Shown: one piece after another, positions 52,154 to 54,844 of the stretch
Layout of the letters: each line of letters starts with the position of its first letter
Numbering within the stretch: position 1 is the stretch's first letter
From: Dictyoglomus sp.
Lineage (GTDB): Bacteria > Dictyoglomota > Dictyoglomia > Dictyoglomales > Dictyoglomaceae
DNA length: 64,000 nt
Assembly: GCA_025060475.1 (NCBI GenBank)
Contig: JANXBZ010000001.1
Coordinates: forward strand, 124,001 to 188,000
Direction: 5' to 3'
Translations under genes and position numbers: made by a program
The notes under the pieces: model-generated
Seen by the model: the letters and a program-made list of their open reading frames with translations, nothing else
Databases searched by the model: none
Told to the model about the DNA's origin: nothing

Positions 52154-52248
52154 TTTTGTTTAATTATACCAAATTCTTATACTACTATTAACAATTTTAC
52201 AATCTTAAACTAAAATTAATCTAAAAAAAATTAAATTAGAGGTGATAT

Positions 52249-53472
52249 ATGAGATTTATTGCAGATTTTCATATTCATTCGAAATATAGTAGAGCAACAA
52301 GTTCTGATATGAATCTAGAAAATTTGAGTAAATGGGCAAAATTAAAGGGAATAGATTTATTAGGAACTGGTGATTTTACTCATCCTCTTTGGTTTGCAGA
52401 ACTAAGAGATAATCTGAAAGAGGATAATTACGGAATTTATAAATATAATGAAGTAAATTTCATTTTAACAACAGAGATTAGTAATATTTATAACCAAGAA
52501 GGAAAAGTAAGAAGAATTCACTCAATCATTTTTTCTCCTTCTCTTGAAATTTGTCATAAGATTAATGCCCTTTTAGGGAAAATAGGAGTTTTAAGTTCTG
52601 ATGGAAGGCCCACCTTTGGAAAAAACCTAAAAGAGCTTCTTCCTCTACTTTGGGAAATCTCCGAGGAGATTTATGTTATTCCTGCTCATGCATGGACACC
52701 ATGGTTCTCTATTTTCGGATCTAACTCCGGTTTTGATTCCTTAGAAGAAGCTTTTGGAGAATATTCAAATAAAATTTTTGCTATAGAAACAGGTCTTTCT
52801 AGTGATCCTCCTATGAATTGGAGATTAAGTAAACTTGATAATATCTGTCTCATCTCTAATTCCGATGCTCATTCTCCAAATAGATTAGGAAGAGAAGCTA
52901 ATGTTTTCAATTGCAATATGGAATATAGAGAAATTTTTAAAGCTATAAAAAATCAAGATAAAAATAGGTTCTTATTTACTATAGAATTCTTTCCAGAGGA
53001 AGGAAAATATCATTTTGATGGGCATAGAAATTGTAATATAGTATTATCTCCCAAAGAAAGTATTAAATTAAATAATCTATGTCCCTCTTGTGGAAAACCT
53101 TTAACTATTGGAGTTGCCCATAGAGTAGAAGTATTAGCAGATAGAGAGGAGGGATATATACCTGAAAATAAAATACCCTATAAAAATCTTGTACCCTTAG
53201 AAGAAATAATAGCACAAGCCATAAACAAGGATGTTTCCTCTCCTTTTGTTCAAAATGAGTATTTTAAAATAGTCTCTACCTTAGGTAATGAATTAAGTGT
53301 TTTAATGGATATTCCTTTAGATGATATAAAAAAAGTTTCCGGAGAAAAAATCGCAGAAGGAATAAAACTTATGAGAGAAGGGAAAGTCAAAGTAGAGCCT
53401 GGATATGATGGGTTATATGGAAAGATAAAAATTTTCTCTTATGAAGATAAAGGACAACTCTCTTTATTCTAA
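52249..53472 (+). CDS. Endonuclease Q (PHP-family deaminated-base endonuclease)
   Basis: 407 aa. A PHP-type nuclease core (FIADFHIHSKYSRATSSDMN, LLGTGDFTHPLWF, VIPAHAWTPWFSIFG, ISNSDAHSPNRLG) plus a C-terminal zinc-binding CPSCGKPLTIGVAHRV region match EndoQ, which nicks DNA 5' of uracil, hypoxanthine, xanthine and abasic sites in Thermococcales and a few bacteria. The last five residues (403-407) are QLSLF, identical to the consensus beta-clamp-binding pentapeptide, suggesting recruitment by the replication clamp. A GAGGTGAT site precedes the ATG. The stop overlaps the convergent ParB-like gene by 4 bp. Confidence 0.88.
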   Translation: MRFIADFHIHSKYSRATSSDMNLENLSKWAKLKGIDLLGTGDFTHPLWFAELRDNLKEDNYGIYKYNEVNFILTTEISNIYNQEGKVRRIHSIIFSPSLEICHKINALLGKIGVLSSDGRPTFGKNLKELLPLLWEISEEIYVIPAHAWTPWFSIFGSNSGFDSLEEAFGEYSNKIFAIETGLSSDPPMNWRLSKLDNICLISNSDAHSPNRLGREANVFNCNMEYREIFKAIKNQDKNRFLFTIEFFPEEGKYHFDGHRNCNIVLSPKESIKLNNLCPSCGKPLTIGVAHRVEVLADREEGYIPENKIPYKNLVPLEEIIAQAINKDVSSPFVQNEYFKIVSTLGNELSVLMDIPLDDIKKVSGEKIAEGIKLMREGKVKVEPGYDGLYGKIKIFSYEDKGQLSLF

Positions 53473-54263
53473 AAAGGTAGTTTAAATAGATCAAAAATTT
53501 TGTCCTTTAGAGATGTACCAGGAAGAAGGTTTTTAAAATCCTCAATTGCTTTATGAAATCCAATATCGTATCCCTTTTTTTGACTTTCAAGCCATTTATG
53601 ATCAGAAATATAAACATACAAATCTGCAAGAGTTCTTCCTGGAAAAGCCTCTAAAATTCTTTCTTTTTCTATAATTTTCAATATAGGAAGATAAATATTT
53701 TTATACCAATCTTTTGCTGCCTCTTTTATATTCACTTCTTTTCCTCTCTTCTCACTCATATAATATTTATGTTCCAAAATTTGATTCAAAAGTTTTTTAT
53801 ATTGACCTATTTCCGTGAGAATAATATCTTTTAATCCTGTAAGAAATTCAAAATCTGATCTTTCTCTGTAAAGAATATTCTCCACAGAATCTTCTGGAGG
53901 TAAGTATTCTATAACATGGGCATCTATTTCTTTCTGTCCTAACTTTCTTGCTATGGAAACTCTATGATTTCCATCTATTACGTAATATTCGTCTTTAATT
54001 TTATAAACTTCTATTGGAGGAAGAATTTTGCCTCTTAATATAGCATCTTCTAATTCTTTCAATCTTCGTAATGAACTTTCTTTTAAAGGTCTAAATTCCT
54101 CATCAAAATCTCTATATCTTCCAACGCTACCTACTATCTTATCTATCTCAATAGTCTGAAATCCAAGATCCCTCCATGCAATTAGTCTTTCTTCGTGGAT
54201 TTTTTCCTTGAAATTTTTAAGATATCTTCTTCTTTTAAAAATTTTCTTTAAAAGATTTTTCAT
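53469..54263 (-). CDS. ParB-like N-terminal (sulfiredoxin-fold) domain protein
   Basis: 264 aa, starting at the ATG at 54263, which forms an ATGA overlap with the upstream phosphoesterase gene; the ORF can be extended to 54290, but that is less likely. Residues 30-130 resemble a ParB/Srx-type domain: FQTIEIDKIVGSVGRYRDFD, LPPIEVYKIKDEYYVIDGNH, RVSIARKLG. The C-terminal helical part, with Arg/Trp-rich blocks such as HKWLESQKKGYDIG, is like DUF4032. There is no partner ParA and no parS motif, so it is not a partition system. Role unknown. Confidence 0.7.
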   Translation of the reverse strand: MKNLLKKIFKRRRYLKNFKEKIHEERLIAWRDLGFQTIEIDKIVGSVGRYRDFDEEFRPLKESSLRRLKELEDAILRGKILPPIEVYKIKDEYYVIDGNHRVSIARKLGQKEIDAHVIEYLPPEDSVENILYRERSDFEFLTGLKDIILTEIGQYKKLLNQILEHKYYMSEKRGKEVNIKEAAKDWYKNIYLPILKIIEKERILEAFPGRTLADLYVYISDHKWLESQKKGYDIGFHKAIEDFKNLLPGTSLKDKIFDLFKLPF

Positions 54264-54844
54264 AAATCTAAAATTATAATTCCAGAACAATTGATAATCT
54301 TTGTATTTCCATATTCTGTAACTCTTGAACTTCTAAACTTATAGTTCATATGAGTATGTCCGTGAAGAAAATAAGATGGTTTATATTTCTCAATTAACCA
54401 AATAAAACTTTTAAAACCTTTATGAGAAAAATCATCACCTTCATGAATCCCAAAAGGAGGTGAATGGGCAACTACAATATCGATTCCCTTCCTTAACTGA
54501 AAGTATAATTTTTTAATCCTCCAGTTCATCTCTCTTTCAGTATACTGAAGGGGGCCACTACTATATTTAATAGAGCCCCCTAAACCTAGTATTCTTTTAT
54601 CCTTAAACTTTATAATCCTTCCATCAATATTATCACATCCTTCTGGAGGTTCTCTAAGATATCTTTCATCATGATTCCCTAATACATAAAACACAGGAAC
54701 ATTCAGGATTGTAGTAAGATACACTAACAATTCTGGTAAAACATCTCCACAAGATATTACGGCTTCTACTCCTTTATAGGGAGTCACATCAAATTTTTCA
54801 TAAAGAATTGGCGATTCGAAGTCTGATAAAGCTAATATTCTCAA
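54260..54844 (-). CDS. Calcineurin-like metallophosphoesterase
   Basis: 194 aa. Metal-binding motifs of the family: ILALSDFESP at the N-terminus (the usual DxH reads DFE), ISCGDVLPELLVYL (GDxx), FYVLGNHDERYL (GNHD), VVAHSPP and LHGHTHMNY. The first motif lacks the canonical His, which may alter metal binding. The substrate could be a nucleotide, phosphoprotein or sugar phosphate. It overlaps the isomerase gene by 4 bp and the ParB-like gene by 4 bp, forming a tight three-gene unit. Confidence 0.87.
   Translation of the reverse strand: MRILALSDFESPILYEKFDVTPYKGVEAVISCGDVLPELLVYLTTILNVPVFYVLGNHDERYLREPPEGCDNIDGRIIKFKDKRILGLGGSIKYSSGPLQYTEREMNWRIKKLYFQLRKGIDIVVAHSPPFGIHEGDDFSHKGFKSFIWLIEKYKPSYFLHGHTHMNYKFRSSRVTEYGNTKIINCSGIIILDL

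Follow-up and report, generated by a model that had tools for sequence, protein, structure and literature searches.

In the window, the 64,000-nucleotide stretch of Dictyoglomus DNA analyzed here, an endonuclease of the EndoQ family ends in the pentapeptide QLSLF, and it is very likely that this lesion nuclease docks its tail into the bacterial sliding clamp DnaN, by which it would be recruited and made more efficient, much as archaeal EndoQ is by PCNA. The gene lies on the forward strand at 52249..53472 (407 codons plus stop) and is preceded, directly 5' of its ATG, by the putative ribosome-binding site GAGGTGA (52239..52245, +), as read from the sequence. The translated reading frame ends in FSYEDKGQLSLF and a stop, with KIKIFSYEDKGQLSLF as the C-terminal stretch before the TAA. 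The earlier note had stated that the protein terminates in QLSLF, and this is exact to the last five residues (403-407; 53455..53469, +), which are encoded together with the stop as CAA CTC TCT TTA TTC TAA (53455-53472). A convergent gene (53469-54290, -) shares four bases with the 3' end of the EndoQ gene, as the two stop codons overlap at 53469-53472. The bacterial clamp-binding consensus has been described as QL[S/D]LF, or more generally QxxLF, and QLSLF itself is the C-terminus of PolC (PMC12309361, PMC3919608).

Among curated models, the protein matches TIGR00375 best (E=1.5e-61), which is the one covering EndoQ. The score of 208.9 bits is below the equivalog cut-off of 326.6 that NCBIfam sets, a value that few matching genomes reach (in the Bacillus-type class 4 of 140, among the archaea 9 of 239). 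By sequence, structures of PfuEndoQ are the only relatives in the PDB (phmmer; 5zb8, E=6.3e-62). An AlphaFold model built from 44 homologues (mean pLDDT 92.3, pTM 0.91) likewise has PfuEndoQ 5zb8 as its top Foldseek match (E=1.3e-42, TM 0.87/0.89 over 401 columns), other PHP enzymes ranking far behind, and it contains the PHP domain, the zinc-binding domain and the C-terminal helical domain of the EndoQ fold. The residues D6, H8, H10, D42, E76, H91, H147, E180, D206 and H208 are invariant and aligned with their PfuEndoQ equivalents. Among them, the metal-site motif D6-x-H8-x-H10 (52264..52278, +), common to PfuEndoQ, shows no variation in a family alignment of 18 sequences, and the codon of the catalytic aspartate D206 (52864..52866, +) corresponds to D193 of PfuEndoQ, a position at which PDB 7k31 has Asn in place of the D193 of 5zb8. 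In the zinc-knuckle region (H259-x2-C262...C278-x2-C281; 53023..53091, +), whose ligand role is suggested by the alignment with PfuEndoQ, the sequence GHRNC...CPSC has a histidine at the first place throughout the subfamily, while PfuEndoQ has CxxC...CxxC. The four-cysteine knuckle is a structural detail of the known PfuEndoQ and not an established requirement, and an HCCC zinc site is plausible from the alignments. We assign the protein to a separate subfamily of EndoQ enzymes, well under the TIGR00375 cut-off, which we call the GYDG type after a C-terminal PGYDGxYG where others have GGGGxYG.

The clamp peptide is carried on a flexible tail, residues 399-407 being the only stretch of the model with a pLDDT below 50. 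Residues 395-402 (53431..53454, +) form a variable linker, and this spacer drifts in sequence and length among relatives from the same genus and family, the C-termini of which read QLSLF, QLSLF, QISFF, QISLF, QLSLF and QLSLF. According to the earlier note, absence of the motif from the EndoQ of close relatives would speak against its proposal; instead, they keep Q[LI]S[LF]F. For a wider comparison, 245 distinct proteins were collected, made up of 80 named GTDB loci together with the members found in the sampled genomes of bacteria and archaea, and their tails were scored against shuffled tails for Qxx[LIM][FLY] as bacterial motif and Qxx[LIMV]xx[FYW] as PIP box. The 134 single-domain bacterial homologues comprise 88 with the bacterial motif, 5 with both, none with a PIP box alone and 41 with neither, so that 93 of 134 tails have the bacterial motif, against about 5 expected after shuffling. 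These 93 proteins span more than 15 named phylum-level groups, and in 84 of them the motif forms the very last residues. The 80 named loci were chosen as those most similar to the query and are biased for that reason; among the single-domain proteins of the sampled bacterial genomes, a subset not ranked by similarity, 37 of 65 have the motif. The 41 proteins that lack it (about 31%) include 13 that are almost tailless, 16 near-misses such as ELSLF and QISFF, and 12 that are neither. With the consensus match and its conservation in bacterial homologues, the reading of QLSLF as a clamp motif is borne out at the sequence level.

A matching partner is available in the same genome, where DnaN is encoded at G000:C7:87779-88879 (286 bits) and no PCNA was found. 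This DnaN keeps L155, G174, H175, R176, L177, F241, P242, N320, Y323, V360, M362, P363 and R365 (E. coli numbering), which we take to be the residues lining the peptide cleft of the E. coli clamp, and differs there in two positions, T172 being changed to V and V247 to I. The protein has features expected of a DnaN client, namely the consensus in an accessible segment, its conservation in orthologues and a partner clamp with a kept cleft.

The archaeal homologues have a different peptide at this position. Among 73 of them (one intein-bearing), 58 have a PIP box, 2 have both motifs, 1 has only the bacterial motif and 12 have neither, which gives 60 PIP boxes in 73 tails, distributed over both subfamilies, against about 1.6 expected after shuffling. 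The contrast between bacteria and archaea is strong (Fisher p=1e-40), although this value ignores relatedness and is no measure of many events. In archaeal members from genomes with PCNA, the box takes the form Q-K-[GS]-L-x-[DE]-F. PCNA is present in five of the six DPANN archaeal genomes checked and DnaN above the cut-off in none of the six, the sixth (G390) showing neither clamp. It was considered that the archaeal members could be mis-binned bacterial contigs, but this is not supported, as they form one supported clade and the clamps of their genomes are those just given. The pairing of archaeal EndoQ with PCNA through a PIP box, which the earlier note had stated, is in agreement with these tails and with the binding reported for TkoEndoQ in PMC4858679. 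One archaeal EndoQ within the PIP-box clade (L277, G762) ends in QSTLFS, a bacterial-type motif. In some DPANN archaea, an intein of about 400 residues splits EndoQ at an active-site motif (PAH/C...VHN/CWTPW, slashes marking the junctions; L186, also L241, L246, L250 and L258, possibly L259). NCBIfam TIGR01443, for the C-terminal region of inteins, matches it weakly, and TIGR00375 also scores 66 bits on part of it.

The earlier note had proposed a swap of the same partnership across domains. This holds in that bacterial tails with QxxLF and archaeal PIP boxes were found within the same subfamily when the C-termini were compared, with the matching type of clamp encoded in the genomes tested, but it does not extend to all bacterial EndoQ. 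In a sample of 70 Bacillus-type proteins from the class of genome G058, the same model being checked on B. subtilis as a positive control, the median tail is only 5 residues long, and the clamp motif was found in 0 of 70, with no conserved internal substitute either. The notion that every bacterial EndoQ has the motif was therefore discarded, and as the Bacillus-type enzymes have almost no tail and no motif, EndoQ in general does not need to be tethered to the clamp. Concerning the number of swaps, trees of 240 rows (FastTree) and 90 rows (IQ-TREE quick) both require two changes of the domain label and two or three of the motif. The archaeal GYDG members form a single clade (SH-aLRT 100) that adjoins the bacteria or lies inside them, and in the TIGR00375 type, PIP tails are found on archaeal members and QRQLSLF at the end of one bacterial lineage (L018, L130). 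Judged from these sequences, the swap occurs in two subfamilies, yet only about twice. With no more than two domain changes demanded by the trees, the swap is thinly replicated, and many independent swaps find no support.

Besides the single-domain proteins, 34 bacterial members seem to run on into a PcrA/UvrD-like helicase, plus a few without a recognized core motif. This number results from 35 candidates minus L153, the long frame of which extends upstream only. The fusion was checked by profile for L102 (PF00580, PF13361, TIGR01073), and the others, among them L089, L098, L213, L218, L219, L221, L225 and L227, were assigned from length and linker. The clamp motif lies within the last 25 residues in 19 of the 30 fusions with a closed C-terminus (1.7 expected), for example as QLSLF, QLGLF, QMSLF or QLRLF, and about ten fusions have a copy in the linker between EndoQ and helicase, sometimes as a second one. 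A whole-genome pattern scan of the Dictyoglomus genome itself found no helicase gene ending in the motif. We consider it possible, if only tentatively, that clamp tethering is a selected and portable feature of EndoQ, which would be re-plugged on a change of domain, rebuilt at the C-termini of fusions and sometimes copied into the linker.

A short motif such as QLSLF can arise randomly, and one may ask whether its hydrophobic residues ended up at the C-terminus by chance and have no role in binding. Indeed, when the whole genome (1.72 Mb, 99.6% complete) was scanned for the DNA pattern Q-[LF]-x-[LF]-F-stop, 25 matches were obtained. However, just 2 of the 25 end a real gene of at least 100 aa, and both genes are of DNA-repair type, namely EndoQ and a TIGR03916 "putative DNA modification/repair radical SAM protein" with the C-terminus QLKFF. 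Together with a conservation across bacterial groups far above that of shuffles and with the other clamp motif that archaea have in its place, this count rules out a chance origin for practical purposes, and we regard it as extremely improbable. Scarcely more probable is that the tail stabilizes EndoQ or binds another partner, its likeness to clamp motifs reflecting a shared hydrophobic-tail design. Clamp motifs are short and clamp binding is here predicted from sequence, which leaves some room for such a role, but the tail is predicted to be disordered and is almost absent from Bacillus-type enzymes, and neither the position-specific conservation of Q, L and F nor the switch to Q-K-[GS]-L-x-[DE]-F in PCNA genomes would be explained.

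It is a more serious, though still rather unlikely, alternative that the clamp-bound tail tethers an EndoQ with a different substrate or role, for example one coupled to replication or recombination together with PcrA/UvrD-like helicases, and not classical repair of uracil and hypoxanthine. That the subfamily is well under the TIGR00375 cut-off, has His for Cys in the zinc knuckle and is frequently fused to a PcrA/UvrD helicase fits such a role, as does a family-4 uracil-DNA glycosylase already encoded in the genome (G000:C8:70469-70972), owing to which EndoQ is not the sole route for uracil. The close likeness of fold and catalytic residues to PfuEndoQ points the other way, and M. acetivorans has EndoQ and UDG together (PMC6202378). 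Concerning the TIGR03916 protein (G000:C7:117707-118834; L114, L375), its relatives in the same bacterial family (L372-L374) end in QLKFPI, QLSLL and QLSLL, and from its C-terminal sequence it is possibly a second clamp client.

In the preferred reading, in which an EndoQ-type nuclease is docked to DnaN, the PHP metal-dependent nuclease domain and the zinc knuckle would incise DNA on the 5' side of deaminated bases or abasic sites, these being the substrates presumed for the subfamily, and the flexible C-terminal QLSLF would dock into the peptide-binding cleft of DnaN. The clamp would thereby recruit and tether the nuclease at replicating or repairing DNA, and the docking would raise its nicking efficiency, parallel to PCNA with archaeal EndoQ and its PIP box. 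For that system, PMC4858679 reports that TkoEndoQ binds PCNA with a KD of 55 nM, and that deletion of the PIP box abolishes both the binding and the stimulation of nicking. The Thermococcus and Pyrococcus enzymes share with the Dictyoglomus protein the fold, the catalytic core, a clamp peptide at the extreme C-terminus (here predicted) and a matching clamp in the host. They differ in their PIP boxes (QRSITEFL, QRTLLQYI), in contrast to QLSLF for DnaN, and the identity in the structural alignment is about 34%, with His replacing the first zinc-knuckle Cys in Dictyoglomus. PolC has the identical pentapeptide, also in C-terminal position, and other QLSLF or QxxLF clients resemble the tail as well, but PolC is a polymerase and not a lesion endonuclease. 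With B. subtilis DnaN, the QLSLF peptide has a KD no better than micromolar (PMC12309361), so that the affinity for DnaN in Dictyoglomus cannot be assumed.

The core idea has been in print since 2016, when Shiraishi et al. described beta-clamp consensus motifs at the C-terminal region of a few bacterial EndoQ homologues and proposed to test the interaction of bacterial EndoQ with the clamp (PMC4858679, main text), so that the Dictyoglomus case is an instance of a published suggestion. The same text lists B. subtilis among the bacteria with an EndoQ gene, and the lack of the motif in the sampled Bacillus-type enzymes is at odds with its statement on bacterial homologues. The Bacillus type is the only kind of bacterial EndoQ known to have been characterized biochemically; the enzyme of Bacillus pumilus (Shiraishi 2017, cited in PMC6202378) is reported to be active on dU, dI, dX and AP sites. 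It is a bacterial EndoQ homologue like the present one, but of a different subfamily, and at the level of types its sampled relatives have next to no tail and no motif. The additions made here may be the many bacterial groups, the PIP boxes of archaeal counterparts in the same subfamily, the terminal motifs of helicase fusions and the lack of a motif in the Bacillus type; the main text of PMC4858679 is without these and without wide sampling, and some of them may already be known.

The sliding clamps of bacteria and archaea belong to distinct sequence families and have distinct docking peptides. A repair nuclease with a constant core and a peptide for the clamp of its host is a clean and testable case of a partnership that is kept by swapping the peptide. 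If clamp tethering is indeed a portable feature of EndoQ, bacteria would possess a clamp-tethered nuclease-helicase excision system, of which we found no description in the literature. The EndoQ-helicase fusions appear worth biochemical study. A nuclease with such a swapped peptide would further imply that many little-studied bacterial lineages link the incision of deaminated bases to the replication clamp.
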